This document shows, piece by piece, positions 21,443 through 44,203 of a stretch of 64,000 nt of DNA. The stretch covers positions 1 to 64,000 of the forward strand of contig NZ_MWZD01000018.1 of assembly GCF_002982315.1 (NCBI RefSeq), written 5' to 3'. The position numbers were made by a program, and so were the translations under genes. The notes beneath the pieces were generated by a model that made no database searches, had not been told where the DNA came from, and saw only the letters and a list, made by a program, of their open reading frames with translations. How positions within the stretch are numbered: the stretch's first letter is position 1; each line of letters starts with the position of its first letter. Source of the stretch: Leucobacter massiliensis (lineage in GTDB: Bacteria; Actinomycetota; Actinomycetes; Actinomycetales; Microbacteriaceae).

Positions 21443-21735
21443 GTGAACACCAGACTCCATCTCGTCTCAGATCGCAGCGAGCGAGGCCGCGCGCGACCGC
21501 CGGCCGGTGCGAGCAGCGGCGAGCCCCCGGGGCCGCGGAACCGGAGCCAGACCGGCGAGCGCTCCGGCGCACCGCGGCCCGCCCTCCCGCTGAGCCACCC
21601 CGCCGTCGCGGCCGCCGCCGGCCGGCCGGCGCCGCGCAGCTCGCGCCGGCGACGCACCGCGCGGGAGCTGCGCAGATTCCTTGCCGAGGAGCGCGGCGCG
21701 GTCACCGCCGAGTACGCCATCGTCATCATGGCCAC
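21443..21735 (+). pseudogene. DUF4244 pilin-like gene, 5' part (interrupted by the integrative element)
   Basis: The N-terminal 97 codons of a DUF4244 protein, a small Flp-pilus-associated protein. A basic, disordered leader ends in ARELRRFLAEERGAVTAEYA, the start of a pilin-like hydrophobic segment, and is cut at IVIMA by the element. The GTG at 21443 has GAGGAAGGGA upstream. As it stands, the frame runs into the element and stops at 21778. Joining 21735 to 47040, 47043 or 47046 restores an intact 132-134 residue protein. Confidence 0.88.
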
Positions 21736-21758
21736 AGTAGTGGACCTAGAGCATACTT
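21732..21758. other. attL, left junction of the element
   Basis: Chromosomal gene sequence ends in ...ATGGCCAC (CCAC at 21732-21735) and passes into element DNA AGTAGTGGAC followed by the arm CTAGAGCATACTT. The four bases CCAC also occur at the right junction. The integrase gene begins 17 bases further on. Confidence 0.75.
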
Positions 21759-21774
21759 CTGTCAAAATGACCAC

Positions 21775-23247
21775 GTGACTTCCTCGAAGACCAGCATTCC
21801 CCGCGTTGCGATCTACGCACGTCAGAGCGTCGAGGAGGACCAGGGCATACGGCAGCAGCTCGATGACGGCCGGAAGCACGCGGCGGATCACGGCTGGACT
21901 GTCGTGCACGAGTTCTCCGACAACGACACGTCGGGCAGCAAGGAACGTGGCCCGAAGACGGACTGGGCGAGGATGCTCAGCGCATTCGACGAAGACGAGT
22001 TCGACACGCTGATCGTCACCGAGACGTCGCGTCTCACCCGCAGCCTGACCGACGTCCTGGACGTCACTCCTCCTCGGCGTGCGATGCGGGTGATCGTGAT
22101 CCGCCAGGGCATCGACACCCTCGTCGCCGACTTCCAGCTCAAGCTCCTCGTGCTCGTGGCGGAGAACGAGGTCAAGCTGAAGGCCCAGCGGGCGGCCCGC
22201 TACGCGGCCGACCGTCGGAAGGTGGGTCATCCGACGTCGGGCAAGACGCCCCACGGCTACCGCTGGGTGCCCGCAGGACAGCGGGACGAGAGGGGGACGC
22301 GTTACGTCGTCGACGAGGCCGAGGCCGAGGACGTGCGTCAAATCTTCAGGGAGTTCCTCGCCGGCGCGACGCTCGGCCAGATCGCCAGGGACCTCACCTC
22401 AACGGGACGCCTCACGCGCAAGGGTGCGCGCTGGCATTCCTCTACCGTCCGTCGGGTTCTCATGAACCCCCTCTACGCGGCCCTCCTTCCGCCGGCACAG
22501 CCGACAGGCCAACACAGCATGGCCGCGATCGATCTCGAAGCCTGCACTCCGGGAGCTTGGCAGCCCATCGTGACGCGAGACGACATCGTCGCTGCCCGGA
22601 GCCGGCTCGTCGGCGTCAAGCCCATGCACGCCGGCACAGCCCGACGCTGGCTCCTCGCCGGCATCGCCCTCTGCGGCGTGTGCCGCAAGCCCGTGAAGTC
22701 CTCGCGCCCCGTCAACCACCCCACCCCTCGTAAGGATGGATCGGTCGCACCGGCACAGCGCTACCACGGCTATCGGTGCCATTTCAGTCGCAACGGTGAC
22801 GTGATCGACGAGTTCGTCTCGGAGCTTTGCATCCAGCGTCTCTCGCAGCCGGACGCCGTCGACCTCCTCACTCCGCCCGACGACGAGTTCGACCTCCCCG
22901 CCCTGCACACGCGTCGGGACGCTCTGCAGGCGGAACGGAAGAACGTCTTCGCGTTGATCGGTAGCGATCCGTCGAGGCTCGCGGCCGCTCAGGATCGTCT
23001 CGAAGAGCTGGAGGAGCAGCTACGCGAGGTCGACGCCGTCATCGCGAAGGCCGCGGAACGGCACCCCCTCGCTGATCTGATGGGCGTCGAGGACGTCAGG
23101 GCATGGTGGGAGAGCCGCACGCTCGCGCGTCAGCGGGCGATCGTACAGCTCCTGATGACCGTGGTGATCAAGCCGGTCGGCATGGGCCACCGCCCGCGTC
23201 GTCCCCAGGACGTCCTCGCGTCGCTGGAGATCACACCGTTGATCTAA
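21775..23247 (+). CDS. int: Large serine integrase (site-specific recombinase)
   Basis: Catalyses integration and, with a directionality factor, excision of the element. The 490-residue protein has the resolvase catalytic domain with YARQSVEEDQGIRQQL (catalytic serine at about residue 15), the ETSRLTRSLTDVL and QGIDT motifs, then a recombinase domain (VGHPTSGKTPHGYRWV...LTRKGARWHSSTVRRVLMNP), a zinc ribbon (CGVCRKPVK...YRCH) and a C-terminal coiled coil rich in Leu/Glu (about residues 380-430). The GTG 21775 start is chosen because upstream codons lie in the att site. It sits at the element's edge, the usual place. Confidence 0.95.
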   Translation: MTSSKTSIPRVAIYARQSVEEDQGIRQQLDDGRKHAADHGWTVVHEFSDNDTSGSKERGPKTDWARMLSAFDEDEFDTLIVTETSRLTRSLTDVLDVTPPRRAMRVIVIRQGIDTLVADFQLKLLVLVAENEVKLKAQRAARYAADRRKVGHPTSGKTPHGYRWVPAGQRDERGTRYVVDEAEAEDVRQIFREFLAGATLGQIARDLTSTGRLTRKGARWHSSTVRRVLMNPLYAALLPPAQPTGQHSMAAIDLEACTPGAWQPIVTRDDIVAARSRLVGVKPMHAGTARRWLLAGIALCGVCRKPVKSSRPVNHPTPRKDGSVAPAQRYHGYRCHFSRNGDVIDEFVSELCIQRLSQPDAVDLLTPPDDEFDLPALHTRRDALQAERKNVFALIGSDPSRLAAAQDRLEELEEQLREVDAVIAKAAERHPLADLMGVEDVRAWWESRTLARQRAIVQLLMTVVIKPVGMGHRPRRPQDVLASLEITPLI

Positions 23248-23298
23248 CTGAACCGCATCGTCGGATAGAGGCTGCCGAGGTCGACGGAAGTCCTCGAG

Positions 23299-24615
23299 CT
23301 ACGCAACATTTCGCGAACTTGGCGTCCGTGACATTGAGCTCAGTCGTTTCTTCACAGCAGCAGCACGGTGCGGTGTCGTCAGTGAACCGAAGCGCGGGGA
23401 GACATGAACTATCTCGTAACTTCCGCCGCCAACCCATGACATCGTCGAGGTGATGCCCCCGCCATCAGTTCCGTCGATAACTCGATCCAAACGAGGAACG
23501 ATGAAGTCCAGCACCGTTTGGGTGTTTCGCTCAGCAAGAATCCAACGACGCCGCATCTTGTGCGCCGTCGAAGCTGTCGTCCCACTTCCACCAAAGATGT
23601 CGACGACGAGTTCCCCGGGGTTCGTGGCGATGTGAATAATCCGCTCCAGAAGAGTTTCCGGCTTCGGCGTGTCGAACACCTCCTGATCTGGGAAGAGCGC
23701 GAGTAGATGACGCTTGGCCTCATCGTTTGTCCCGGTGTCGGCAGAACCCCACACCGTAAAGGGGACAAGGCCACGAAGTTGGTGGGCGAAGAGCTTGATC
23801 CGGGGCGATCCGTCGCCGCCCTTGGGGAACCAAATTCGATCCTCAGCCAGCAGTTCCCGATACGTGGGCTCAGTCGCGTACCAGGATCGGCCACGAGGTG
23901 GTCGATGCACGATGCCCGTCGGAGTCACGATGTCGTACTGCTGGGCCTTGCGATAACCGGGAGCCGTAAACGGCGCATCTGCCCAGGGGCCTCTAGGGTC
24001 ATCGTCGCGATTGCGAAGGTTCGCCTCGTCTTTTGCGAGGAGGTTCCGTGAGGTCTTCCAGCGTTTTGGGCCGCTGGGCGCGTAGACGAGAATCGTGTCA
24101 TGGTTCGAAGAAAAGGCCGCCCGTGAGTCCCTGGTGAGCTTCTTCTGCCAGATGACGGACGCGACGAACGCTTGCTCACCGAAGACTTCATCCATGATGG
24201 CGCGCGCACGGTGAACTTCTGCGTCGTCAAGATGCACCCAAACGCTCGCGTCTTCGGCGAGAAGCGGCTTCAGCGCCTCGAGGCGATCACGCATCATGCT
24301 GAGCCACTTAGAGCGAACCATCGAATCGTTGTACTGACGGAAGTTCACCTGTGTGTTGAAAGGTGGGTCAATATAGACCAATCGGATGCCGCCGGCCAAC
24401 ACTGACGTGTTCTCGCGGAGCGATTCGATGACGTCCAGTCCGTCCCCAACCGCAACGATGTTCGAAGTACTGCCCAAGACTCCGTCGGTGAGCTGCTCGA
24501 ACTTCAAGGCGTGCTCAAGCCGCCGATCGTGTGGGTCCACCCACTCGTAACCGGTCAGGCCCGATGCGCGGAGCGACAGCTCCTTGTTCGGCCACACGAG
24601 CTGTACGTCTGTCAT
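23299..24615 (-). CDS. Site-specific DNA methyltransferase (type III Mod-like, beta class)
   Basis: Methylates an amino group of adenine or cytosine in a specific sequence. The 438-residue protein has the catalytic motif IDPPFNT near residue 85 before the S-adenosylmethionine motif FGGSGTT near 345, which is the beta order, and the Mod-like YNDSMVRSKWLSMMRDRL segment. The stretch between them is the target recognition region. It is transcribed divergently from the Dam-like gene across about 106 bases and probably belongs with the following mcrBC-like pair as one restriction-modification system. Base composition is lower in GC than chromosomal genes. Confidence 0.92.
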   Translation of the reverse strand: MTDVQLVWPNKELSLRASGLTGYEWVDPHDRRLEHALKFEQLTDGVLGSTSNIVAVGDGLDVIESLRENTSVLAGGIRLVYIDPPFNTQVNFRQYNDSMVRSKWLSMMRDRLEALKPLLAEDASVWVHLDDAEVHRARAIMDEVFGEQAFVASVIWQKKLTRDSRAAFSSNHDTILVYAPSGPKRWKTSRNLLAKDEANLRNRDDDPRGPWADAPFTAPGYRKAQQYDIVTPTGIVHRPPRGRSWYATEPTYRELLAEDRIWFPKGGDGSPRIKLFAHQLRGLVPFTVWGSADTGTNDEAKRHLLALFPDQEVFDTPKPETLLERIIHIATNPGELVVDIFGGSGTTASTAHKMRRRWILAERNTQTVLDFIVPRLDRVIDGTDGGGITSTMSWVGGGSYEIVHVSPRFGSLTTPHRAAAVKKRLSSMSRTPSSRNVA

Positions 24616-24721
24616 CTCCGCCTCAGTTCCGATGGCACAGCGAGCCCCTGAAGGTCAGTGGATCCGCGTCTACTAGACTCTCATGATCGTAAGTGAACTC
24701 CTAGCCGACACGAGGACCATC

Positions 24722-25612
24722 ATGACCTCCAGCTCCTCAGCGGCCGCCGCCGACGTCGCGGCTAACTCGAAAGCGACGAAGCCATTCGTTCGATGGGCTG
24801 GGGGGAAAACGCGGCTCCTGCCCAAGATCCTCCCGCATGTCCCTGAGCGCTTCGAAAACTACTTCGAACCATTCCTGGGCGGCGGGGCGATGTTCTTCGC
24901 GGTCCAAGATCGCATCACTGGGCGAGCTCAACTCGCGGATCTCAATGAACATCTTGTGGCCGCATGGATTGCGATGCGGGACCACCAGCTGGAGCTGCGA
25001 CCGCTTCTCGAGTGGTACCGCGAACGCGACTCGAAGGAGTTCTACTACGAAGTGCGTGCGAGCGTACCCGAAGGTCTTGTCCCGCGTGCAGCGCGATTCC
25101 TTTACCTCAACGGTGTCTCTTGGAATCATCTCTGGCGAGAGAACTCCAAGACCGGCGCTATGAACGTGCCGTGGGGCGATCGCGTGTTCAAGAGCTTCGA
25201 CGACGAAACTTTTCAGCGTCTTGAGCGATCGCTGCAGCTCGCGGACGTGCATGCGGCCGACTTCCGCGAGGTGCTCCGCAATGCCAAAGCGGGCGACTTC
25301 GTCTACCTCGATCCTCCCTACCTGCCGGTCTTCACCAAGTCCGACGTCGAGAAAGAACCCACCTCGAAGTTCAATAAGTACACCGCGAAGGTTTTTGGCG
25401 AGTCTGACCTACGCGAGCTGGCGCAACTTTGTGGAGACCTGACAAGCCGCGGCGTCAAATGGGTGATGTCCAACCGCGACACACCGGGCGTCCGAGAGCT
25501 GTTTCCCGATGCTGACATCATTGGGTTTACGACACGTCGCTCCGTCGCTGCGCAGAGTCGACGGAAAGTTGAAGCCGGCCACTCGCCGGAAGCTATCGTC
25601 ATCGGAAGGTAA
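24722..25612 (+). CDS. DNA adenine methyltransferase, Dam family (alpha class)
   Basis: N6-adenine methyltransferase. The 296-residue product has the N-terminal AdoMet motif [26 protein letters not shown], the catalytic DPPYLP near residue 200 and a C-terminal [12 protein letters not shown], all in Dam/M.DpnII order. The ATG at 24722 is preferred (GAGG 7 bases upstream) over an ATG at 24683. The mcrB-like gene starts 5 bases after the stop, so they share an operon. With the divergent beta-class enzyme it makes two methyltransferases for one system, as expected if the recognition site is asymmetric and each strand needs its own enzyme (inference). Confidence 0.93.
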
Positions 25613-25617
25613 ACAGC

Positions 25618-27354
25618 GTGGTCGCATCTCCGGTTGAAGCTGTATGGGTCTGGTTCTATGGCGGCACTAACCAAAAATGGACGTACGGTCGCTTCGGGAA
25701 GAGCGGTTTCACCAAGGATCACCTCCAGATCAAAGATGAAGCCGCAGGTCCTGTCCAGGCCATCTATGGACTGAGGCCAGAGCCTGACCAGAAGCACGAG
25801 TTAACGCTGAAGTGGCCGAACGGAGGTAGCCGAGACGGTCGCTTCATGTACTCCTCAGGACGCTTCGTTCTTCGGTGGGATCGTCCAGCGACGGCAGGTT
25901 CCGTGCCCTGGAGCTCGCCAGACCCTTGGCGCATGACTCCTGACCCCGACCCAAGTTCAGTGACACCACTTCGAGGCAACGGTGTAGCACGAACAGACGT
26001 CGATGCGATTGCGGCAATCGACTCGTTTAACCAGGCAGGGCATCTCGCTTACCTTGTCGCGGTAAAGCTGAAAGACGAAGATGACGTCCTGCATGTCCGC
26101 ACATACTTGAAGGACCCCTCGGCTGGCCTCGAGTTCGCGAGCACTGATCTGCTCCCTCGGGAGGTGCAGAAGCTTGTCGATTCACTCAACGTCTCTGTGC
26201 CGTCATGCGCATCCCGGATCCTAGGCGGTCAGGCCCCAGACCCTGCCGTTGACGCAGCGATCGCGAAGCTCGAGGAGAACCCAAACCTCCTCCTCATCGG
26301 GCCTCCTGGTACCGGTAAGTCTGTCCTGCTGGACAAGCTCGTTCAGCATGTGACAAATCCTGACTTTGAGGTCACATTTGACCCCGATGAAATTTACGAC
26401 GCATGGAGCGAGCCGGAGGACGAACCTGGTGCAGGCAAGGCCGCTACGGTGGTCTTTCACCCGAGCTACTCCTATGACAATCTCGTGGTCGGTCTTCTGC
26501 CTAAGGTCAAGGGCAAGGAAGTTCAGGTGGGGGTGTCCACCGGACCGCTCGTGAATCTCGCGCACTATGCTTCTAGCGGGAATCCGGCGCTCCTGGTGCT
26601 CGATGAATTCAATCGCGGTAACGCTGCTGCCATCCTCGGAGACACGCTCGCACTGCTCGACAAGGACAAGCGCGACGTGGCTCACGTTGACCTACCCTCC
26701 TACGGACTTCCCATCGACGTTCCTGAAGAGTTCGCCGTAGATAAGAGCGTCCGGGTCGCGTCTCGGTTCGGGTTGCCGCGGAATCTATGGATCGTGGCAG
26801 CGATGAACTCCAGCGATCGCAGTGTGGCACCCCTCGACGCGGCCCTTCGTCGCCGATTCTCGATCGTCGAGATTGGGCCGGACTACGAGCTTCTTGCAGC
26901 GCAGCTCTCGGCAGATCTCGATGCCGACCTAAGCGACCCGTGGTCGAACTGGACGCCTGGCCATGTCGCTAGCCTGGCCGTCGAATTGTTGCGAGGGATT
27001 AACGCCCGAATTGAAGCATCGCTCGGCCGCGACTTCCTCCTCGGCCACTCCAACTTCTGGCATGTCGCAGGCGATTCCGCCGAAGATGCGCTCCGATCCT
27101 TGGCCTCAGCGTGGGATCTTCGAGTGGTCCAGACGATGCGTCTCGCGCTCCAGGACGATGACGACACCCTCGCCTTCATTCTCAACGCGGGGAAACCAGA
27201 AGACGCTGTCGCAAGTTCTTCGCACGCAGTTTGGTGGCTGGCTGCCGACCCCGCTCACGAGCAGTTCGCTCGTCCACGCCTTGCGTTCAACCCGATTGCT
27301 GGGATGCCGTCGGACGAGCTCCATACCGAACTCTCGCGACTCGCCGGGGTTTGA
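25618..27354 (+). CDS. McrB-like AAA+ GTPase, restriction subunit
   Basis: The motor subunit of an McrBC-type nuclease. The 578-residue protein has a non-canonical N-terminal domain (WVWFYGGTNQKWTYGRFGKS), probably for DNA recognition, then a AAA+ domain with Walker A GPPGTGKS at about residues 228-235, Walker B LVLDEFNRGN near 325-335 (McrB has DEINRGN) and the McrB signature MNSSDRSVAPLDAALRRRFS near 396-415. The GTG at 25618 follows the dam-like stop by 5 bases. The mcrC-like gene follows 1 base after the stop. Classical McrB senses methylcytosine; here, next to two methyltransferases, it more probably cuts unmodified DNA, as in LlaJI-type systems. Confidence 0.88.
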   Translation: MVASPVEAVWVWFYGGTNQKWTYGRFGKSGFTKDHLQIKDEAAGPVQAIYGLRPEPDQKHELTLKWPNGGSRDGRFMYSSGRFVLRWDRPATAGSVPWSSPDPWRMTPDPDPSSVTPLRGNGVARTDVDAIAAIDSFNQAGHLAYLVAVKLKDEDDVLHVRTYLKDPSAGLEFASTDLLPREVQKLVDSLNVSVPSCASRILGGQAPDPAVDAAIAKLEENPNLLLIGPPGTGKSVLLDKLVQHVTNPDFEVTFDPDEIYDAWSEPEDEPGAGKAATVVFHPSYSYDNLVVGLLPKVKGKEVQVGVSTGPLVNLAHYASSGNPALLVLDEFNRGNAAAILGDTLALLDKDKRDVAHVDLPSYGLPIDVPEEFAVDKSVRVASRFGLPRNLWIVAAMNSSDRSVAPLDAALRRRFSIVEIGPDYELLAAQLSADLDADLSDPWSNWTPGHVASLAVELLRGINARIEASLGRDFLLGHSNFWHVAGDSAEDALRSLASAWDLRVVQTMRLALQDDDDTLAFILNAGKPEDAVASSSHAVWWLAADPAHEQFARPRLAFNPIAGMPSDELHTELSRLAGV

Positions 27355-27355
27355 G

Positions 27356-28606
27356 ATGGAGCCGAGGCTGAGGCTTCGTGAGCACGAAGGCGTCAACCTT
27401 CCTCGCGAGACCGCTGGATTGGTAATCGACGCTGTCCAAGGACTTGAAGCCCGCCTGCAACCGCGCATTCCTCAGGTGACTCGTACCGAAGGCGTCGTCA
27501 AGATAGGCAACCTCATCGGATCGGCCCGGATGGCGGACGGCACGGTTCTCGAAGTTGAGCCGAAGGTGCCGGCCAGCAGTTCCTGGCCGAGCGCCGTCGT
27601 GCAGTTGCTCAACAAAGAATCGCGCATCTCCGTGACCGGGTCGCAGCGCTCCCGCCAGGGACACGCCCGCCAAGACCTGACGTCAGTCATTGCGTTCGAA
27701 TACGCACGTCGTCTCGAAAATGCCATCTCGAAGGACGGCCCACTGCAGCTTTTTGAGCGCTACCGTCTCAACTCGCGCCGGTTGAGCGGGAGACTCGACG
27801 TGAGCGCATACACCCGCAATGCTTGGCGCGACCCCATTCTCTTTCCAGTTCAACGGGATCAGCTCACGGTAGCGAATGACTTCGCGCGTGGCCTATCGGT
27901 AGTGTCACACGCATTCCGTCGATCAGTGTCAGACAGCGCATTGTCGGCCCAACTGCTTCGACTCGAGTCCGCAGTCATTCCAGGACATCCGCTACCAGAA
28001 CACATCAACCCTGTAGCGGCCACTCGGCCGATGCCTTCCCAGTGGAAGAATTACCGCCCTGCATGGGACATTGCGGCCGCCGTCCTGCGGAACCGCTCAA
28101 TCATCAATGACCCAGGGCACTCAATCGGCCTCGAAGTCGCAGTTGAGCCGTGGCCACTTCTCGAGACGCTCTTAGAACGGACCCTCGCGGCCGTCACTCG
28201 AGCAGCTCCGAATATCGTGTTCGGCGCGAAGCGACGTTACCCAATCTTGAAGCTCCGCGGCGCGATCGCCGGCTCAGTGGAGCCTGACGGCGTCCTTCGC
28301 GATGACACAGGTCAAGTTGTGGCGACATTCGAGGCAAAATATACGTTGCCCAGTACACATCCGAGCGAGGACCATCGCTATCAGGCCCTCGCTACGGCCG
28401 CAGTACTGCACTCTCCGATCGCGATACTGGTGTATCCAGGTGCCGAGGAACCTAGGATCTACGACGTCCAAGGATTCAACGGACAACCCATGCAACTGGC
28501 AACCATGGGACTGGAGCTTTATGGGTACGAACGCGGCTCAGGGGAAAAGCGTAGAGCAGACGCGGTTCTGAGACTCCTAGGAACCATGGCCGGACGAACG
28601 CCCTAA
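27356..28606 (+). CDS. McrC-like nuclease subunit
   Basis: Supplies the endonuclease activity to the McrB-like motor. The 416-residue protein has the McrC layout: a beta-rich N-terminal domain (GNLIGSARMADGTVLEVEPKV), a middle YARRLENAI...RGRLDVSAYTRN-like segment (here LSGRLDVSAYTRN) and a C-terminal PD-(D/E)xK fold with an Asp in SVEPDGVLRDD and ExK in ATFEAKY at about residues 325-327. The ATG lies one base beyond the mcrB-like stop (TGAGATG), so translation is coupled. It closes the methyltransferase-McrBC operon. Confidence 0.87.
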   Translation: MEPRLRLREHEGVNLPRETAGLVIDAVQGLEARLQPRIPQVTRTEGVVKIGNLIGSARMADGTVLEVEPKVPASSSWPSAVVQLLNKESRISVTGSQRSRQGHARQDLTSVIAFEYARRLENAISKDGPLQLFERYRLNSRRLSGRLDVSAYTRNAWRDPILFPVQRDQLTVANDFARGLSVVSHAFRRSVSDSALSAQLLRLESAVIPGHPLPEHINPVAATRPMPSQWKNYRPAWDIAAAVLRNRSIINDPGHSIGLEVAVEPWPLLETLLERTLAAVTRAAPNIVFGAKRRYPILKLRGAIAGSVEPDGVLRDDTGQVVATFEAKYTLPSTHPSEDHRYQALATAAVLHSPIAILVYPGAEEPRIYDVQGFNGQPMQLATMGLELYGYERGSGEKRRADAVLRLLGTMAGRTP

Positions 28607-28614
28607 CGTCGTCA

Positions 28615-28818
28615 TCACCTCAGGTCGCTGAACGGATCCACGACGCTCTGCACACCGTGCTCCGCACACACGAAGGCGATCCGAACGCCCGTGCCGTCGG
28701 CGCTGAGTGACGTGTCGGGCGCGCAGTCGCCGCCACACTCTGAGCACGTCCGGTAGCCGTCGTCCGTCGGCACGCGGATCTCGAGGCCGTCGGGCCCTTC
28801 CGTGCGCTCGTAGTCCAT
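28615..28818 (-). CDS. Small zinc-ribbon-like protein
   Basis: A 67-residue acidic protein with a CSECGGDC cluster and a C-terminal FVCAEHG, a plausible four-ligand zinc site. No family is recognised. It faces the end of the mcrC-like gene with 8 bases between the stops. A 47-residue protein at 37001-37144 in the same element has a similar CLECGGE motif. Function unknown. Confidence 0.6.
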   Translation of the reverse strand: MDYERTEGPDGLEIRVPTDDGYRTCSECGGDCAPDTSLSADGTGVRIAFVCAEHGVQSVVDPFSDLR

Positions 28819-28956
28819 GGCCCCATTCTCACCGCATTTCGTGCAGACGGCACTGGATTTCGTGCTGCACTCGTGTCGTCACCGAGGACACCGCGGTGTT
28901 GCTTCACGTCGCGATCATCGCAACGATGGAGATACCGGTACGAAACGAGCACGCAC

Positions 28957-29157
28957 ATGACGAACCAAAAGAACCCGCAGTCTCCCTCGGGCGAGGCGCA
29001 CGATGACACTCCGCGCAAGCGCTGGTATCAGCGCCCCTGGTTCATGAGCCCTGACGGGCACAACGTGATGCCGACGAGCTGGATCGGACTGGTCGTCCTC
29101 GCCGTCGTCATCGTGGCCGGCGTCGGCATCGTGAACTGGATCGGCTCTCTGTTCTGA
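28957..29157 (+). CDS. Small single-helix membrane protein
   Basis: A 66-residue protein: polar N-terminus (NPQSPSGEAHDDTPRKRWYQ) and one hydrophobic helix, SWIGLVVLAVVIVAGVGIVNW, near the C-terminus. The ATG at 28957 has only a weak ribosome site. A terminator-like hairpin follows at 29178. It is not recognised; similar small membrane proteins are common on actinobacterial mobile elements. Confidence 0.55.
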   Translation: MTNQKNPQSPSGEAHDDTPRKRWYQRPWFMSPDGHNVMPTSWIGLVVLAVVIVAGVGIVNWIGSLF

Positions 29158-29177
29158 GCCGCCTGCTGTCGTCATTG

Positions 29178-29206
29178 AACGCCCTCCTCCTCGGAAGGGG
29201 GCGTTT
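29178..29206 (+). terminator. Hairpin with T-rich tail
   Basis: AACGCCC pairs with GGGCGTT around a GC-rich loop, followed by TCGCTTTTC. It lies 21 bases after the small membrane protein gene. Confidence 0.65.
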
Positions 29207-29308
29207 CGCTTTTCTCCCGTCATACCCATCGTTCGAGATCGTCTGTCGGTGGCTCCTCGTAGCCTGGAGGCGACGACCCGACGCTTTCCCACACCGCGAG
29301 GATCTCCC

Positions 29309-29521
29309 ATGGCCATGCGCACCATCGTCCACCACCTCTACCGCGACGCTGGCGACCTCTTGCCCGTCTGCGGCACCATCCCCGGCCCCGACGAGCGGGA
29401 CCAATGGCACACCGGCCACGTTGTCGACTACCTCGTCGCCTACAAGCGCGTCGGGCACCCGTGCTGCACCCTGTGCTGCGCGGTCGCACTCACACTCATT
29501 CAGGCCCACGATGCGGCCTGA
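29309..29521 (+). CDS. Hypothetical small protein with cysteine and histidine clusters
   Basis: A 70-residue protein (MAMRTIVHHLYRD start) with VCGTIPGPDERDQWHTGH and HPCCTLCCAVALTLI. The cysteines and histidines could bind a metal, but no known family is recognised. The ATG at 29309 has GCGAGGA upstream. It precedes the EAD-nuclease gene by 33 bases and may be co-transcribed with it. Confidence 0.5.
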   Translation: MAMRTIVHHLYRDAGDLLPVCGTIPGPDERDQWHTGHVVDYLVAYKRVGHPCCTLCCAVALTLIQAHDAA

Positions 29522-29554
29522 TCGCACATCGGCGTATCGCGAGACAATGCTGTT

Positions 29555-30580
29555 GTGACCGGATTCAGTTTCCTCGACGCCGTCTTGGGCGATGCGCCGG
29601 CGCTGCCCCTGAAGGTGTCGTCCCGCTCGTTCCGAAGCGCGATCGAAGAAGCGCTCATTCACACGTACACCCGGAACGATCTCGAAGCCGTGTTGGCCGA
29701 GGAGCTCAAGCTTCCCTGGCAGAAGCAGGACGTTCAGCCCAGCCACGGAGAGTTCTCCAAGCGCGACCTCATCCGTGCATACACGGAAGGCTGGGAGCTC
29801 CCGCGACTCGTCGCTCTTGCGCGTCGCATCGTGAACGAGCTCGAAGTAGCCGGCCAGCTTCGCCTCGACCTGTCGAACCTGCTCGCTGAGCACGATCGCG
29901 CTGGCGGTGTCGACGCGCCCGCAAAGAACCTCATTTTCGCGGCGAACGGTCCCAAGCCCGAACTCGTCCTCAGAGACGCCGTCAACAACGACATCGAGAT
30001 CGTCCGCAATGGTGAGTACTGTCTCGTCTACAACCAGCCCATCCCAACCGACGGCTTGACCTTCGCCCGTCTGATCGAATGGTGGCGCGCACACGAGGGC
30101 TTCGAGGAATCCGTATCCGCGCGAGACGTTGGAATCGACCTCCATAAGCGCCTCCGTGCGTCCTTGGGGGAGAATTCCGTCGAACTCCTCGTCTTCGATA
30201 CCTACGCGGCCCGCTACAAGGACAACCAGTTCGACATCCCGGCGCTGATCCCGCAGGTCTATCTCCATTTCGATCCCGCTACCCAGGCGTCACGACGGGC
30301 CGCTGGCGAGAGTGGTAGTCCGTTGGCCCGTCAGAGGATGGACTTCCTTCTCCTGTTCTCCAGCAGGCACCGGGTCGTGCTGGAGGTCGACGGGAAGCAG
30401 CACTACTCCACGGGCAATGTGGCGAGCCCCACTTTGTACAGCGAGATGGTGGCCGAGGATCGCCGGCTCCGGCTCGCGGGATACGAGGTTTACCGATTCG
30501 GTGGAGCCGAGCTGATGAAAGACGACGCTGCGAAGATGGTCGCCGAGTTCTTCGACCAGCTTGCCGACCGCATGAGGTGA
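29555..30580 (+). CDS. Putative defence nuclease: EAD-like N-terminal domain and DUF559/Vsr-like PD-(D/E)xK domain
   Basis: The 341-residue protein ends in a restriction-like nuclease domain: RMDFLLLFSSRHRVVLEVDG with KQHYS (about residues 261-285) and LRLAGYEVYRFGGAEL, the layout of DUF559 and Vsr-type nucleases. The N-terminal 90 residues (FRSAIEEALIHTYTRNDLEA, then IRAYTEGWELPRLVALA) resemble the effector-associated domain EAD1, an adaptor found in bacterial conflict systems; this part is weaker. The middle has no assignment. The GTG at 29555 lacks a strong Shine-Dalgarno. It lies beside the restriction genes and ahead of a resolvase. Role in phage defence is inference. Confidence 0.7.
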   Translation: MTGFSFLDAVLGDAPALPLKVSSRSFRSAIEEALIHTYTRNDLEAVLAEELKLPWQKQDVQPSHGEFSKRDLIRAYTEGWELPRLVALARRIVNELEVAGQLRLDLSNLLAEHDRAGGVDAPAKNLIFAANGPKPELVLRDAVNNDIEIVRNGEYCLVYNQPIPTDGLTFARLIEWWRAHEGFEESVSARDVGIDLHKRLRASLGENSVELLVFDTYAARYKDNQFDIPALIPQVYLHFDPATQASRRAAGESGSPLARQRMDFLLLFSSRHRVVLEVDGKQHYSTGNVASPTLYSEMVAEDRRLRLAGYEVYRFGGAELMKDDAAKMVAEFFDQLADRMR

Positions 30581-30596
30581 GGCCTCGTCGGTCCGG

Positions 30597-31163
30597 TCAG
30601 CCGCCGGTGCTCTCCTCGGAGAGCACTCGGTGAACGGTGCCCATCGAGACACCGATACCGCTCGCGATGACCCGAATCGACTCCCCGCGGTCGCGTCGAG
30701 CCACGATCGCGGCGCGCTTGTCTTCGTCGACGACGGTGGGGCGTCCGCCAACTCTGCCGCGTGCCCTCGCAGCCTCGAGTCCATTCTTCGTCTTGCGCAC
30801 GATGTCCCGGCGACGGTCTTCTGCCAGCGCGAGCGCGAGATCCAGGATGAGGCTGCGCTCCGTATGTTCTCCTGCTGCGATGCCTTCGAGCACCTTTACC
30901 GAGATGCCTCGCTCGAAGAGGTCCGTCAGGACGATCAATCCCTCGAGGAGATTCCTGCCGAGTCGGTCCACCTCCTGAACCGTCAGCATGTCCCCGTCGC
31001 GGAGATGCTCGATCGCCTTCTGCAAGCCCGGGCGCTGGTCTACGGCGAGCTTGCCACTGACCTTCTCCTCGAACACCTTCACGCAGATGGGGTCGAGGGC
31101 GTCGTGCTGCCGCGCGGTGTCCTGCCCTCGCGTGCTCACCCGAACCAGGCCGATCAATGCCAT
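30597..31163 (-). CDS. Serine resolvase/invertase
   Basis: Small serine recombinase of the Tn3 resolvase/Hin family, 188 residues. The catalytic domain has LVRVSTRGQDTARQ (catalytic serine at about residue 10), VQEVDRLGRNL and the long E helix (LILDLALALAEDRRRDIVRK), followed by a helix-turn-helix (SIRVIASGIGVSMGTVHRVL). The 155 bases upstream contain repeated GTTCA-type words that may be its recombination site. In an element it could resolve multimers or invert a segment. Its stop lies 16 bases from the convergent nuclease gene's stop. Confidence 0.93.
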   Translation of the reverse strand: MALIGLVRVSTRGQDTARQHDALDPICVKVFEEKVSGKLAVDQRPGLQKAIEHLRDGDMLTVQEVDRLGRNLLEGLIVLTDLFERGISVKVLEGIAAGEHTERSLILDLALALAEDRRRDIVRKTKNGLEAARARGRVGGRPTVVDEDKRAAIVARRDRGESIRVIASGIGVSMGTVHRVLSEESTGG

Positions 31164-31176
31164 CAGCGCACCCTTC

Positions 31177-31310
31177 GTTCAATAAACGTGTTCATCATCT
31201 TGAATCGAGACTAGCTGTTTATGAACGAGTTGTTGAACGAGTTGGCCGTGAATTTCCTATCCGTGCGGGCGGACTGTTCAGCGTTCGACAACCGGTCGTT
31301 TTCTGAACGT
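31177..31310. promoter_or_regulatory. Possible resolvase recombination site
   Basis: GTTCAATAAACGTGTTCAT (31177-31195) is an imperfect inverted repeat of ATGAACGAGTTGTTGAAC (31221-31238). Further GTTCA or TGAACG words occur at about 31280-31308. The region is non-coding and lies directly upstream of the resolvase, the typical position of a res site and autoregulatory operator. The assignment is by position and repeat pattern only. Confidence 0.5.
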
Positions 31311-31318
31311 CGTCTCAC

Positions 31319-31996
31319 CTAGAGGCCCAGCTGAGCCCGATAGCGGTCGGTCGTCCAATGGTTCTCGAAGAAGCCGTGCTCATTGCGGAGGTGCATGCGC
31401 GTATCGCGCATCGGCGACGACAGCACCGACTCGTACAGCGCGCTCAAGCCGTCCGTCGCAACCCGCCCGATATGGGCGAGGATCTCGATCTGGCCGTTGC
31501 TGTGCCCGAGCAGCAGAGGTGCCATGCTGCTCAGCACTTCTTGGGTGTCGTTCTTCGCAGGGCCGAGGTGCACGCCTCCCTCGGCATTTGCGTAATACAG
31601 GACGACGTCACGGAGCGCCAAAGGACGGTCGCGGACCATTCCCACCTGCGCCTTCAGGAGGTGCTGGATCGTCGTGATGCTCGGCGTGCTCTGGTCGCCC
31701 ACGAGCTCCTCGCCGCCGAGCCTGATCAGGTACGGCAGATCGTCGTCGCCCACACTCTCGGGCTTGGTCCACGGGCGGAGGCGGAAATCCATCTGAATCT
31801 CCGGCCGGCCCGCACGCACGCGGTCCACGAGCGTATGCCCGTCGACGAAGAGTTTCCGAAGCAGGGGCGCGATTCCGAGCAACTCGTACCGACTGCGCTC
31901 CCGCGGCTTCTCGCATCGCCGACGAAGATCCTCGAGCGTCTCCACGAAGAGCCACTCCGCGATCATGATCTCCGGCCCGATCGGCGGCCGGGTCAT
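31319..31996 (-). CDS. Hypothetical protein coupled to an XRE regulator
   Basis: A 225-residue soluble protein (starts MTRPPIGPEIMIAEWL) of unrecognised family, with MVRDRPLALRDVVLYYANAEGG and GHSNGQIEILAHIGRVATDG. Its ATG overlaps the stop of the upstream XRE gene by 4 bases (ATGA), so the two are translated together. Genes of this arrangement on mobile elements may be regulator-effector or toxin-antitoxin-like pairs, but no catalytic motif is visible here. Confidence 0.65.
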   Translation of the reverse strand: MTRPPIGPEIMIAEWLFVETLEDLRRRCEKPRERSRYELLGIAPLLRKLFVDGHTLVDRVRAGRPEIQMDFRLRPWTKPESVGDDDLPYLIRLGGEELVGDQSTPSITTIQHLLKAQVGMVRDRPLALRDVVLYYANAEGGVHLGPAKNDTQEVLSSMAPLLLGHSNGQIEILAHIGRVATDGLSALYESVLSSPMRDTRMHLRNEHGFFENHWTTDRYRAQLGL

Positions 31997-32226
31997 GACG
32001 TCGACGTGATCGGTGCGAGCAGATCGGCCGGCGTCACCTCGAGGCCACGTGCGAGCTTGACGATGACGTCGAGCGTCGGATTGCGTCGCCCTCGCTCCAG
32101 ACCGCTGACGTAGGTGCGATCCATGCCGACGTGGTGGGCGAAGGACTCCTGAGATCCCCAGCCGCGATCCCGGCGCAATTCCCGAAGATGCTCGCCGAAT
32201 ATTCGACGGTGCTCGGGAACGCTCAT
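31993..32226 (-). CDS. XRE-family transcriptional regulator
   Basis: A 77-residue single-domain helix-turn-helix protein: LRELRRDRGWGSQESFAHHV, DRTYVSGLERGRRNPTLDVI and a short end. It is coupled to the 225-residue hypothetical gene. A 14-base palindrome (32256-32269) lies 30 bases upstream, between it and a divergent lipoprotein gene, and is its likely operator. Confidence 0.88.
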   Translation of the reverse strand: MSVPEHRRIFGEHLRELRRDRGWGSQESFAHHVGMDRTYVSGLERGRRNPTLDVIVKLARGLEVTPADLLAPITSTS

Positions 32227-32255
32227 AGATCAATGCCAACGGATATGCTGTCTAT

Positions 32256-32269
32256 TAGTCCACGGACTA
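32256..32269. promoter_or_regulatory. Palindromic operator candidate
   Basis: TAGTCCACGGACTA: six-base arms TAGTCC/GGACTA around AC. It lies between the divergent XRE and lipoprotein genes, where a repressor could control both. Confidence 0.5.
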
Positions 32270-32309
32270 TGAGTCACACTGTTCAGGTGCTACTGGGGAG
32301 ATGCCCGCC

Positions 32310-32837
32310 ATGACCATCACATCCACGACGCGGATCCGATCCGCTGCCGCCGCGGCGGCCCTTGTCGTTCTCACCGCAGGGCTCGCTGGCTGCGCCGGCG
32401 AGGAGGAGCCCGCCGCAGAACCGGTGGCGTCGACCGTCGAGACGCCCGTCGCGACAGAAGAGCCTGCCGAGGCGGTCGAGCTCGCCGCAGACGGCTCGTA
32501 CGTGTCGTTCAACGACATCGACGTCGTGCTCACCACCATGACGCTCCAGGGCGTCGAGCTCCGAGAGCTGAGCACCGCGTGCATGCCGCAGTTCGTCCAG
32601 GAGTACACGCACGACTACGACCCGTCCACGGGTGCCGTGACGCTGAACTATGCCGACACCAGCGAGAAGCAGCTCGCGGCGTCCGACGACGGAGGGATCA
32701 GCCTGTACGGCGATGGTGCCGACGACCGCCGAGGCTTTGCGGCTGCGGACTCGGCCGAGGGTGAAGAGCTGGTCGCGGCCTACGAGCAGATGTGCCTGGA
32801 CAGCTATGGAGAGTTCGAGAACGACGGCCGCTCGTAG
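32310..32837 (+). CDS. Putative lipoprotein
   Basis: A 175-residue lipoprotein: basic start, hydrophobic segment AAAAAALVVLTAGLAGC ending in a lipobox (LAGC), a Glu/Pro/Ala-rich linker and a small domain with two cysteines (STACMPQF and YEQMCLDSYG). The ATG at 32310 is preferred over 32301 because GGGGAG is 12 bases upstream of the former. Family unknown. It converges on a second lipoprotein gene, and both could be surface-exposed exclusion or accessory factors of the element (speculative). Confidence 0.7.
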   Translation: MTITSTTRIRSAAAAAALVVLTAGLAGCAGEEEPAAEPVASTVETPVATEEPAEAVELAADGSYVSFNDIDVVLTTMTLQGVELRELSTACMPQFVQEYTHDYDPSTGAVTLNYADTSEKQLAASDDGGISLYGDGADDRRGFAAADSAEGEELVAAYEQMCLDSYGEFENDGRS

Positions 32838-32852
32838 CCTCATCACCTACAC

Positions 32853-32893
32853 AGCAAGAACCCCGTGGACGATAGATCCGCGGGGTTCTTGCT
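32853..32893. terminator. Bidirectional terminator between two lipoprotein genes
   Basis: AGCAAGAACCCCG (32853-32865) is the exact reverse complement of 32881-32893. It lies between convergent genes. The stem is 13 bp with a 15-base loop. Confidence 0.85.
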
Positions 32894-32906
32894 GTGCCGT
32901 TGGGAG

Positions 32907-33542
32907 TCAGAGGATGAAATCGATGAGCATCTCACCCGCCCCCAGGCACATCTCGCGATACTCGCGCATCTCGATGTCGGTGTGCACGGAGGAGACATCC
33001 ACGTCTGCTGTGAGAGCTGCATCCGTGATCGTGGCCCACGTGGTGAGGCTGTCACTATGCTCCGTAGGATTCTCGCCTTCCCACGTCACGATCCAGCTGT
33101 CCGCGTACACCGAGTCCTCGTTCGGTGCCACCGAGCCATACCCCTCACCCTCGATGGATCCGATGCACGTGTGCCGCAGGTAGTGCACCCGCCCCCTCTC
33201 CAGGTCGACCGACCACGACTCGAGCTCCGGGCTGAACGCCTGGATCGCGCGCAGGTAGAGCGTCGACCCCTCCTCTCCCAATACGATCGGATCGGCGTCG
33301 CTGTCGAGCTCGCCCTCGGGTTTCTCGCTCGGTGCGGGCGTCACCGTTGCCGAGAGGTCGTCCAGCTCCTCCGTCCCCTCGGGCGTGGGCTCTTCCGTCG
33401 GTTCGGCATCCGACGGGGAGGTCGGCTCCGGGGTCGCGGTCTTCGCAGCAATCGGTTCGACCCCCTCGTTTCCCGGGTAGCTGCAGCCCGCGACGGTGAG
33501 CGTCAGGAGCGCCGTAGCCAGACCTGCTGTAATCCTCTTCAC
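32907..33542 (-). CDS. Putative lipoprotein
   Basis: A 211-residue lipoprotein with a hydrophobic signal (ITAGLATALLTLTVAGC) ending in a VAGC lipobox, a long Thr/Pro/Glu-rich linker and a domain with HTCIGSIEG and REYREMCLGAGEML. The start is GTG 33542, two bases after the stop of the upstream membrane protein, so it is part of the 35074-32907 operon. Its two-cysteine C-terminal domain is reminiscent of the convergent lipoprotein, though identity is low. Function unknown. Confidence 0.7.
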   Translation of the reverse strand: MKRITAGLATALLTLTVAGCSYPGNEGVEPIAAKTATPEPTSPSDAEPTEEPTPEGTEELDDLSATVTPAPSEKPEGELDSDADPIVLGEEGSTLYLRAIQAFSPELESWSVDLERGRVHYLRHTCIGSIEGEGYGSVAPNEDSVYADSWIVTWEGENPTEHSDSLTTWATITDAALTADVDVSSVHTDIEMREYREMCLGAGEMLIDFIL

Positions 33543-33544
33543 GT

Positions 33545-34105
33545 TTATGCGCCTGCTCCCTTCGTGTCGTTCTCCAGAGCGGCCTTGGTGTTCACGCGCA
33601 CTCCGGTCTTGCTCTTGAGATTCCGAAGCCCATCCCCGATGAGCTTCGGCGCAATGATGAACATTCCCAGGGCGAGGCCCGCGGCGACTGCGACCCAGAT
33701 GTTCGTGAAGATGAGCAACGCGAGACCGATGAGCCATCGGACGATCAGGAAGACGGCCGTGTAACCGACGGCGAGCAGAACGAGACGCCAGACCGGCGAA
33801 TTGGCCTGGAAGCGCTGGTAGTCTGCCCAGGCCGTCCGCAGCAGACCGGAGGTGGCCTCGAAGTCGCCCTTTCGATCCTTCTCCGGCAAGACGATGAGGC
33901 CCGCCGTCACCATCGTCGAAACGAGGCGAAAGAGGATCATCGTGGCACCAGTGGACGCGAGTTCCACCCATCCCTGCGTCGAGATCGCCCAGGCCAGAGC
34001 CGCGAGCGACCCCATCCCCAGCAGAGTGCCGACGATGTCGTAGGCGCGACTATTCGGCGTGATGTTGACGGTCACGTGCGGCTGGTTGTTGTTGTTCTCG
34101 GTCAT
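33545..34105 (-). CDS. Membrane protein of the mobilization operon
   Basis: A 186-residue protein with four hydrophobic segments (VGTLLGMGSLAALAWAI, STGATMILFRLVSTMVTAGL, LVLLAVGYTAVFLIVRWLIG, LLIFTNIWVAVAAGLALGMF) and a polar N-terminus starting MTENNNNQPHV. The ATG at 34105 overlaps the end of the upstream gene by 4 bases. It belongs to the small operon of element-encoded membrane proteins and may assist transfer, but no family is recognised. Confidence 0.65.
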   Translation of the reverse strand: MTENNNNQPHVTVNITPNSRAYDIVGTLLGMGSLAALAWAISTQGWVELASTGATMILFRLVSTMVTAGLIVLPEKDRKGDFEATSGLLRTAWADYQRFQANSPVWRLVLLAVGYTAVFLIVRWLIGLALLIFTNIWVAVAAGLALGMFIIAPKLIGDGLRNLKSKTGVRVNTKAALENDTKGAGA

Positions 34106-34932
34106 GCTGTTTTCCTCTCGTGGGAGTCGTCGATGTCGATGTCGTCGGGGATGGCCATCAGCTCGGCCATGGCGAGGATCTCCTCGTCGTCCTCGATGTC
34201 GTGCGGGTGAGTCGGTACGGACTCGGGGGTCTGCGCCGGAGCCGGCCCAGAGCTCGTCGCGGTCGCGTGAAGGCCGTCGATGATTCGCATCCCGTCGTCG
34301 CGCGCATCGTTCTGCGCCGAGGCGCTCTTCCGGACGGCGGGGGCCTCCCAACCCCAGGCGTAGACCAGCCACGCCGCACGCAGGAGCCCGAGGGCGACCT
34401 GGACGTAGATCCAGCTGATCCACCCCGCGGCGTACCAGCCGGACAGGGTCCGCGAACCGATCAGTCCGCCGCTCACCGTCTCGATGACCGAGGCCAGACC
34501 GTGGATCGCCCAGAGGTCCCAGCCGAGCGGCCGCCCGATCAGGACACCCAGCGACAGGACTCCGGCGACGAGGAAGTGCCAGACGCGAGGCCGGTGCTTC
34601 TCCGCCGCCATCTCGGCTGCCCGGAAGGCAACGAGCGAGACGAGCCATGTGACGCCAAAGCCGACCGGTGTCACGATGCCGTAGACGATCACGTAGGAGA
34701 CCAGCCCCAGCGCCGACGTCTTCGTGTCGTCGTGGTGCGTCCAGAGGTGGAAGACACCCTTGATCTCGGCCTCGCGGGCGGGTGTGCCGTCGAGTCCCGC
34801 CTTGCTGCGCTCGATCTCGCGTGCGCGACGCGTCAGCTGCGCGACGCGTCGAAATGCCGCCGGCTTGTCCAGCCACGTCTTGGAGTTGATCCACGCCGCG
34901 CGCTCGGCCTCGTATCGGGTCGGCTCAGGCAT
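34102..34932 (-). CDS. Multi-helix membrane protein of the mobilization operon
   Basis: A 276-residue protein with a charged cytoplasmic N-terminus (ERAAWINSKTWLDKPAAFRR, REIERSKAGLDG), about five hydrophobic segments between residues 75 and 205, and an acidic C-terminal tail (DIEDDEEILAMAELM, DDIDIDD). It overlaps genes on both sides by a few bases, indicating one operon. Similar proteins occur next to relaxase genes on actinobacterial plasmids, which suggests a transfer role, but this is inference. Confidence 0.65.
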   Translation of the reverse strand: MPEPTRYEAERAAWINSKTWLDKPAAFRRVAQLTRRAREIERSKAGLDGTPAREAEIKGVFHLWTHHDDTKTSALGLVSYVIVYGIVTPVGFGVTWLVSLVAFRAAEMAAEKHRPRVWHFLVAGVLSLGVLIGRPLGWDLWAIHGLASVIETVSGGLIGSRTLSGWYAAGWISWIYVQVALGLLRAAWLVYAWGWEAPAVRKSASAQNDARDDGMRIIDGLHATATSSGPAPAQTPESVPTHPHDIEDDEEILAMAELMAIPDDIDIDDSHERKTA

Positions 34933-35074
34933 GCGGCGTCACCACCCCGAAGGTGGCCGAAGCGCTTGCCGACGGGGCCAGCGGCGTCACGGTCGAGCCC
35001 AGGACGAAGCCGACGAGGAAGACGGCTCCGAGGACGAACAGGAGGATGATCCCTCCGAAAATGAGTCGCCACAT
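34925..35074 (-). CDS. Small single-helix membrane protein
   Basis: A 49-residue protein that starts MWRLIFGGIILLFVLGAVFL and continues with a Ser/Ala/Pro tail. Its 3' end overlaps the next gene by 8 bases. It opens the minus-strand operon of membrane proteins and lipoprotein. Function unknown. Confidence 0.55.
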   Translation of the reverse strand: MWRLIFGGIILLFVLGAVFLVGFVLGSTVTPLAPSASASATFGVVTPHA

Positions 35075-35199
35075 CGTGGCTCCCTCCGGGTCGCAGATGC
35101 CCGGACAGGAAGAAACCCGGGCGGAATGGGGGTGCCAGACCGATGTCGGCACAGGCTCCGCATTCGGGCCTCGGGTTACTGTCCATCCTAGGGTAGTAT

Positions 35200-35215
35200 T
35201 GTTGTAAGTGCAACA
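35200..35215. promoter_or_regulatory. Inverted repeat in divergent promoter region
   Basis: TGTTG (35200-35204) and CAACA (35211-35215) flank TAAGTG. The site lies 22 bases before the RHH gene, between it and the divergent membrane-protein operon, and may be the RHH protein's operator. Confidence 0.4.
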
Positions 35216-35236
35216 CCATTACATGAGGAGAAGCGC

Positions 35237-35497
35237 ATGAGTCGCATGTCGATCTCGCTGGACGCGGAGTCCCGTCGACGCCTGCAGCATCACGCCGCCG
35301 ACCGGGGGATCAGTCAGCCCGGCATCCTCGCTCGCGTCCTGGTGGAGCATGGACTCGACGTGCTGGATGCCGCGGACCCCGCGCTCATCGAGCTCGTGGA
35401 CGAAGCCATGAAGAAAGAACGCGCCCGGCGTCAAGCCGTCGGGCGTGCGGCCATGGAGTCGCGTTACTCGCAGAAAGACGATGATGACGCCGACTGA
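35237..35497 (+). CDS. Ribbon-helix-helix-like DNA-binding protein
   Basis: An 86-residue protein beginning SRMSISLDAESRRRLQHHAA, a CopG/RHH-type pattern (beta strand then basic helix), followed by an acidic end. The ATG at 35237 has GAGGAGAAG upstream. The coupling-protein gene starts 11 bases after it, so it may autoregulate that operon or act in the relaxosome. Confidence 0.7.
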   Translation: MSRMSISLDAESRRRLQHHAADRGISQPGILARVLVEHGLDVLDAADPALIELVDEAMKKERARRQAVGRAAMESRYSQKDDDDAD

Positions 35498-35508
35498 AAG
35501 GCCCCACG

Positions 35509-36924: not shown

Positions 36925-36943
36925 CGGCCTCGTAGGCAATCGG

Positions 36944-36986
36944 CGCTCGAAGACCCCAGCAGCCTGGCTGCTGGGGTCTTCGAGCG
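36944..36986. terminator. Perfect 19-bp hairpin after the coupling protein gene
   Basis: 36944-36962 (CGCTCGAAGACCCCAGCAG) is the exact reverse complement of 36968-36986, with a five-base loop. It lies between convergent genes. Confidence 0.88.
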
Positions 36987-37000
36987 TCTCGGGGCGGTGC

Positions 37001-37144
37001 CTACTCCTCTGGCAACAGCTTCGAGCAGCCGTCGTAGTGGAGTCGTGTGCTGTCGCCCGTAGGCGTCTCTCCGCCGCACTCCAGGCAGATGTCGTAGCCA
37101 CCCACCCCGTAGAGCGTGTCGCGGCTCGTACTGAGGATGCTCAC
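37001..37144 (-). CDS. Very small zinc-ribbon-like protein
   Basis: A 47-residue product read on the minus strand from GTG 37144: SILSTSRDTLYGVGGYD, then ICLECGGETPTG and YDGCSKLLPEE. The CxxC and later cysteine suggest a metal site. It lies 2 bases after the stop of the Gln-rich gene, the last in the relaxase operon. Compare the 67-residue CSECGGD protein at 28615-28818. Coding status is supported by operon position and the clean end, not by known homology. Confidence 0.5.
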   Translation of the reverse strand: MSILSTSRDTLYGVGGYDICLECGGETPTGDSTRLHYDGCSKLLPEE

Positions 37145-37146
37145 GG

Positions 37147-37527
37147 CTACATCCCCATGCCGCGGGACTGCTGCTGTCCCTTGGACTGCTGCGCGGCAGC
37201 GCGCTGACGCGCCTGCTGTTGAACCCTCCGCGCCTCGGCGAGGCGCTGCTGGCCGGCCGAGCGCTGCGCCTGAGCAGAGCGCTGCGCGGCCGTAGCCTGC
37301 TTCTTCTGGTTGCCCTGCTGCTGAATCGACATCGTCGTGCCTCCCTGTTCTGCGAGCGCTGCCCGCTGCTTCTGTCCTGCTGCCTTCAGGCGCTGGCGCT
37401 GGGCCATCGCCTCTCGGTACTCGGGCGAGGTCTCTCCGAACCTCGCCGCCGCCTTCTTCTGACCGTCGCGCTCGACGGCCGCGCGGACCTTCTTCACCTC
37501 ACGGTCGTCGACCTTCGGCTGAGCCAT
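37147..37527 (-). CDS. Gln/Ala/Arg-rich coiled-coil protein
   Basis: A 126-residue basic protein with a helical N-terminal part (VDDREVKKVRAAVERDGQ) and a C-terminal half dominated by Gln, Ala and Arg (QQARQRAAAQQSKGQQQ). It lies 22 bases downstream of the relaxase gene in the same operon. It may bind DNA or the relaxosome; no family is recognised. Confidence 0.6.
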   Translation of the reverse strand: MAQPKVDDREVKKVRAAVERDGQKKAAARFGETSPEYREAMAQRQRLKAAGQKQRAALAEQGGTTMSIQQQGNQKKQATAAQRSAQAQRSAGQQRLAEARRVQQQARQRAAAQQSKGQQQSRGMGM

Positions 37528-37549
37528 GTCCTTCCTCCCTGCTGTCCTG

Positions 37550-40886: not shown

Positions 40887-40899
40887 TCCGGAGCGAGGC

Positions 40900-41404: not shown

Positions 41405-41409
41405 CTCGA

Positions 41410-44197: not shown

Positions 44198-44203
44198 CGT
44201 ATG

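Follow-up and report, generated by a model that had tools for sequence, protein, structure and literature searches.

McrBC is taught as a machine that cuts modified DNA. What, then, might such a machine do when its genes stand in one cluster with those of two adenine methyltransferases? The question is raised by a four-gene locus in a stretch of 64,000 nucleotides from Leucobacter massiliensis (positions 1 to 64,000 of contig NZ_MWZD01000018.1, assembly GCF_002982315.1), called the window below. The explanation that we prefer, with a probability of about 0.75, is a LlaJI-like Type II restriction-modification (R-M) system with an McrBC engine, in which an alpha-class and a beta-class methyltransferase, both predicted to make N6-methyladenine (m6A), would protect one strand each. 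The gene set, the intact motifs, the conserved linkage and the predicted folds are the observed part of this reading.

The initial annotation described a Mod-like gene divergent from a Dam-McrB-McrC operon, and the open reading frames (ORFs) and Pfam matches agree with this arrangement, with intact motifs. The Mod-like, beta-class N6-adenine DNA methyltransferase, the second methyltransferase of the set, is encoded on the minus strand at 23299..24615 (438 residues; N6_N4_Mtase, PF01555, E = 4.2e-39). The plus strand carries the Dam-like alpha-class (D12) N6-adenine DNA methyltransferase at 24683..25612 (309 residues; MethyltransfD12, PF02086, E = 4.1e-37), the McrB-like AAA+ GTPase, an R1-type subunit, at 25618..27354 (578 residues, GTG start; AAA_5), and the McrC-like PD-(D/E)xK nuclease, an R2-type subunit, at 27356..28606 (416 residues; McrBC, PF10117, E = 1.2e-17). 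All four Pfam matches are above their cut-offs, and the gaps on the plus strand are 5 nucleotides between Dam and McrB and 1 nucleotide between McrB and McrC. The promoters of Mod and Dam would both lie in the divergent intergenic region (24616..24682), within which no match to a sigma-70-type promoter was found. The idea of a shared site in this region, resembling LlaJI autoregulation, was tried without success. Among the ten stretches between the Mod start and the Dam core, which take in the first Dam codons, no 6-mer occurs in more than 6 and no 7-mer in more than 5, while GATC is found in 4, all counted without a shuffled control.

Both methyltransferases are assigned to amino-methyltransferase families (PF02086 and PF01555), whereas in LlaJI proper both are cytosine-5 enzymes. 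Their class letters, that of the gamma enzymes discussed below, and the m6A product follow from motif rules and are presumed here. Mod has the beta-class motif order, with LVYIDPPF early and DIFGGSGTT late. Its PADLOC MTase_III match scores 315.5 bits, and its best match among solved structures is the Mod protein 6k0w (E = 4.6e-33); it is shorter by about 130-200 residues than the three longest matched Mod chains (567-644 residues). The Dam-like protein scores 177.8 bits against TIGR00571, the NCBIfam "dam" family, over a cut-off of 114.85, and its best solved-structure match is the DpnII methyltransferase 2dpm (E = 1.3e-37); a further in-frame ATG lies at 24722, downstream of its start. Motif counts here and below take in the window wherever it carries the gene. 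DPPF and DxFxGSGTT are kept in 10 of 10 Mod orthologues, and DPPY is present in 15 of 15 Dam proteins.

The motor and the nuclease are those of the LlaJI/LlaI/BsuMI class. The McrB-like AAA+ GTPase carries GPPGTGKS, LVLDEFNR and NSSD; its PRK11331 score is far below the cut-off (65.2 bits versus 637), and it is therefore a remote McrB. All 14 McrB proteins keep Walker A and NxxD, and all but that of locus L008 (13 of 14) show the DEFNR pattern. Membership in CoCoNuT systems, whose McrB has NxD, was considered and is ruled out by the NxxD motif in all 14. The adjoining McrC, whose start was chosen inside a longer mechanical ORF (26963-28606), matches PF10117 across residues 48-361 and has the PD...E-A-K motif (PDGVLRDDTGQVVATFEAKY). 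E-x-K is kept in 14 of 14 McrC proteins, as FEAKY in 12 and as FECKY in L003 and L004; L009 has PSAD at the position of PD in the others.

The initial annotation noted an unusual N-terminal domain of McrB as a possible determinant of specificity. This domain (residues 1-205, 25618..26232, plus strand) is predicted to have a B3-type DNA-recognition fold, and LlaJI.R1 is among the tied best fold matches of its model. The domain was modelled alone, since among the listed rows the full-length model matched the AAA+ part only. Its extent depends on the GTG start at 25618; in the database, the same protein has only 473 residues. The long form is supported because relatives of 573-580 residues align over 100% of it; the database annotation probably begins at a start codon further downstream and so lacks half of the domain. 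Confidence in the LlaJI-like explanation is tempered by the fold match itself, since two other B3 enzymes score equally with LlaJI.R1 and the match barely exceeds the background of the tool. Identity of the domain to H. pylori LlaJI.R1 is 7%, a search of its profile against PDB sequences gave nothing below E = 0.47, and one against a viral structure library gave nothing below E = 0.058. No methyl-reader (DUF3578/ADAM, YTH or EVE) was matched by Pfam on the window McrB or is among the listed fold matches of the domain, which does not exclude one. PF28529 is listed for many McrB relatives and is not among the Pfam matches of the window McrB. It is probably not the N-terminal domain, because it is also listed for protein P0066, which is without most of that domain.

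A search for the four-gene neighbourhood, proposed with the initial annotation, supports the linkage. A profile of 26 McrB proteins found 21 loci in the genome_contigs set. Fourteen of them (L002-L015) match over the N-terminal domain too and were counted as relatives; as the set was scanned by exact words, this number is a lower bound. In the other seven (L016-L022) the match is confined to the GTPase part, and these loci do not enter the counts. The Dam-like gene lies directly 5' of McrB in all 14 relatives (in L010 its start is off the contig), and McrC directly follows McrB in 13 of 13; L015, whose contig ends inside McrB, is excluded from the totals for McrC and for the second methyltransferase. 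A divergent Mod orthologue, 54-83% identical to the window Mod, is present in nine loci (L002-L008, L013 and L014), eight from Actinomycetota and one from Candidatus Lucifugimonas (Chloroflexota), and the divergent geometry is the same in 10 of 10 Mod loci, window included. All 13 judged loci encode two amino-methyltransferases and thus, like the window, have the methyltransferase pair of the LlaJI/LlaI/BsuMI class. No foreign gene interrupts the contiguous four-gene set (flanks were listed for four loci only). The set is not a chance assembly, because it recurs in other genomes. Pairwise identities between genes of the module correlate at 0.84-0.93 (45 or 91 pairs); this is partly the result of common descent and by itself is no proof of joint function.

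The full-length McrB is rare in samples from its order and phylum. Among the matches listed for an order sample and a phylum sample (396 genomes each, own genome included; E ≤ 1e-30, three candidates per genome scored), the full McrB occurs only in the own genome, and each sample adds one GTPase-only match. At least three short GTPase-only matches were found in viral_contigs, and none of the matched records from plasmids (18) and phages (3) covers more than 80% of the McrB query. With a limit of E ≤ 1e-3, a protein-cluster search gave at least 523 relatives of McrB, of which 120 were listed.

The second methyltransferase is the variable member of the set. No Mod was found in L009, L011 and L012 (Xanthomonas arboricola, Rhizobacter and a Burkholderiales metagenome-assembled genome), nor in the 8 kb upstream of the L015 Dam gene. 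Instead, a gamma-class N6 methyltransferase of 701-714 residues directly follows McrC in L009, L011 and L012, each with PF02384 above its cut-off and one with PF07669 as well; NPPW is present in 3 of 3 complete enzymes. The L010 contig stops 117 nucleotides past McrC, and these bases encode the start of a gamma methyltransferase (first 38 residues), for which none of 1000 shuffles scored as high against each of three homologues. Gamma enzymes are thus found in four loci, all from Pseudomonadota, L010 being counted by its start only. Since Mod is present in nine loci and a gamma enzyme in the other four, the second methyltransferase has been exchanged for one of another class. The four gamma loci lie on one side of a branch in the McrB tree (support 97/95) and are split off likewise in the Dam tree (85/82); therefore a single exchange suffices. 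Both trees were rooted at the midpoint only and exclude L015. The broader generalization strikes us as evenly balanced: a B3-McrBC family with an invariant Dam-like alpha methyltransferase and an exchangeable second adenine methyltransferase, beta in Actinomycetota and Chloroflexota and gamma in Pseudomonadota, with the site staying fixed and two-strand protection evolving modularly.

Among the loci that match the GTPase part only, L016 of Meridianimarinicoccus roseus (5180-10089) encodes D12 and gamma methyltransferases upstream of a 372-residue McrB-like GTPase without the N-terminal domain. Apparent transposase genes follow the GTPase, and no McrC is visible. This may be a damaged cassette of adenine type with the LlaI/BsuMI layout. 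Under the generalization above, its combination of alpha and gamma enzymes with a short GTPase would exemplify the exchangeable second methyltransferase independently. A motif scan of L017-L022, of which L017 and L019 are short contigs, showed a DPPY string in L018, within the ORF that follows McrB, and in L021 an ORF of C5-like type.

How could such a module work? The R1 protein of LlaJI is the specificity subunit and binds the site (PMC1459862), and it does so through its B3 domain (PMC7680126). By this analogy, the McrB-like subunit would be expected to use its B3 domain to bind a short, probably asymmetric, unmethylated site. A McrB hexamer, stimulated by McrC, would then move on DNA using GTP, and the PD-(D/E)xK centre of McrC would cut. 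The Dam-like and Mod-like enzymes would each place m6A on one strand of the same site, and two methyltransferases fit an asymmetric site because such a site needs two. Host DNA, including hemimethylated daughters, would thereby not be bound or not be cut. In Pseudomonadota the gamma enzyme would stand in for the beta one. Working like LlaJI, LlaI and BsuMI, the system may cut unmethylated and spare methylated DNA at one asymmetric site. The LlaJI-like reading with amino-methyltransferases of two classes, put forward in the initial annotation, is supported by the conservation of both methyltransferases, the intact motor and nuclease motifs and the predicted B3 domain.

Other explanations divide the four genes differently. 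The Dam-like methyltransferase alone could be cognate to McrBC and act on a palindrome, with Mod a neighbour kept for other reasons. The invariant part is indeed Dam-McrB-McrC, Mod lies on the opposite strand and is missing in Pseudomonadota, and Dam is closest to GATC-type enzymes; but the divergent geometry of Mod is constant, and where Mod is lacking another N6 methyltransferase fills the slot in 4 of 4 judged loci. This replacement suggests that a second activity is required and makes a sole cognate Dam unlikely, though it is the alternative to which we give most weight. Least credible of all is the view that Mod is the remnant or orphan of some Type III system with no relation to McrBC. 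The sequence is Type III Mod-like, but no Res gene stands beside it: PF04851, the Res-type helicase-nuclease, is unmatched on the contig of the window (13 unsorted matches lie on other contigs). Moreover, the protein falls short of the longest Mod chains, and its position is kept in nine further loci from two phyla.

The remaining alternatives concern the McrBC part. A Type IV McrBC cutting modified phage DNA could be stably allied with two m6A methyltransferases that serve regulation or protection from other systems. McrBC is typically Type IV, an enzyme specific for 5-methylcytosine would not cut m6A, and some McrB N-terminal domains read modified bases, as described for the YTH domain of TgMcrB, which reads 6mA (PMC7680126). 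Nevertheless, the model of the N-terminal domain matches B3 recognition domains, the methyl-reader searches above were negative within their limits, and both methyltransferases, which we infer to be cognate, recur with McrBC in a contiguous set. A Type IV role is therefore also improbable and ranks just after the sole cognate Dam. Finally, methylation could mark self in a BREX-, DISARM- or MADS-like manner, with unmarked phage DNA blocked without cutting. Some McrBC branches are reported as associated with a DISARM-like system and methyltransferases (PMC11090510), and by the account of PMC1459862 cleavage by LlaJI was not seen in vitro. Weak PADLOC matches to mad8 for McrB (E = 6.3e-5 in the window, 3.4e-6 in L002) and to mad2 for a gamma methyltransferase (4.5e-12) point the same way; these MADS matches are far below the best matches. 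Against it, no other BREX or DISARM model is among the PADLOC matches listed for the window proteins (25 of 53 for Mod), and E-x-K of McrC is intact throughout, so that blocking without cutting is very unlikely.

The LlaJI-like module would be the defence cargo of a mobile element. A serine-integrase element of about 25.3 kb (21735..47045, ends approximate) splits a host gene, presumably DUF4244/Flp-pilin-like, into halves at 21644-21742 and 47035-47148; in 22 of 24 same-genus genomes this gene is in one piece. The large serine recombinase of the element (PF00239 and PF07508) lies outside the module at 21709..23247 on the plus strand. GC content is 59.1, 59.4, 59.7 and 60.0% in the Mod, Dam, McrB and McrC genes; the part of the element that lies downstream has 65.7%, and the flanks have 70.1 and 71.8%. 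By gene names assigned by eye, the insertion is near topA. Imperfect inverted copies around TAGAGCATAC and GTATGCTCTA were seen by eye at the inner ends (about 21740-21775 and 47015-47045), as expected of attP half-sites. The same gene is split in genomes G781 and G799 by insertions of about 30-32 kb (L037-L040) with an integrase 58% identical. Their cargo is different: judged by eye, G781 has a Type I R-M set and G799 a further R-M-like gene. Because the cargo differs while the target is the same, the gene looks by eye like a hotspot at which defence cargo can be exchanged. Mobilisation of the element is probable, since genes resembling a VirD4/TraG coupling protein, a relaxase with a MobC-like partner and a primase/DnaB-like protein are seen by eye at 35509-44399; the insertions of the congeners encode relatives of the relaxase- and primase-like proteins at about 30-34% identity. 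A 341-residue protein at 29555-30580, which we take to resemble AbiJ-type defence proteins, matches no PADLOC model, and its C-terminus matches DUF559 weakly, below the cut-off. A tRNA-Ala predicted by ARAGORN on the minus strand at 20926-21013, inside a sigma-factor-like ORF, is probably false.

In this family an McrBC motor and nuclease are combined with a domain that probably reads the site and with a pair of adenine methyltransferases of unrelated classes, and its members are a natural set for asking how methylation switches off an McrBC motor. Genes named "5-methylcytosine-specific restriction protein B" may be parts of m6A-blocked Type II systems, and the methyltransferases could help to bypass restriction in these actinobacteria.

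Several known systems share parts of this design. The endonucleases of MboII/FokI-type systems are simple restriction enzymes, not McrBC, and BsuMI has two cytosine-5 methyltransferases. The LlaI methylase is one FokI-like two-domain adenine enzyme, and amino-methyltransferases beside McrBC-like restriction are thus probably not without precedent. Like the present module, LlaI of Lactococcus plasmid pTR2030 is described as McrBC-related, acting on unmodified DNA and having two methyltransferases (PMC3874153). Its LlaIB is a short GTPase (337 residues) without the N-terminal domain, and its cassette has three restriction genes; BsuMI of Bacillus subtilis likewise differs by a short GTPase (343 residues) without this domain (PMC1459862). 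As in the module, two methyltransferases or methyltransferase domains share one site in asymmetric Type IIS systems of the MboII/FokI type, in MboII with enzymes of differing type (PMC3990576). LlaJI, from Lactococcus plasmid pNP40 and with a homologue in H. pylori, also combines two methyltransferases with a B3-McrB GTPase and an McrC nuclease (PMC1459862; PMC7680126); its B3 domain is reviewed in PMC12707154. By the published description, however, LlaJI has two cytosine-5 methyltransferases acting on GACGC/GCGTC and all genes in one direction (PMC1459862), unlike the alpha and beta enzymes and the divergent Mod here. In C. cellulovorans, removal of two restriction genes from a four-gene operon likened to LlaJI is reported to give tenfold more conjugation of an unmethylated plasmid (PMC11779793). 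A census of McrBC systems states that McrB-like GTPases are prevalently associated with predicted DNA methyltransferases and defers details to a later paper; no methyltransferase classes, B3 domains or four-gene layout were found in its account of the methyltransferase-associated branch (PMC11090510). No description of alpha with beta or alpha with gamma pairing was found in the literature searched, which left most subscription papers and REBASE outside. The kind of system is already known, because a McrBC-related Type II family (LlaI, BsuMI, LlaJI) with a type IIS methyltransferase pair has been described (PMC2614495); the variant here is the pairing of an alpha with a beta or gamma adenine methyltransferase and the exchange between these classes.
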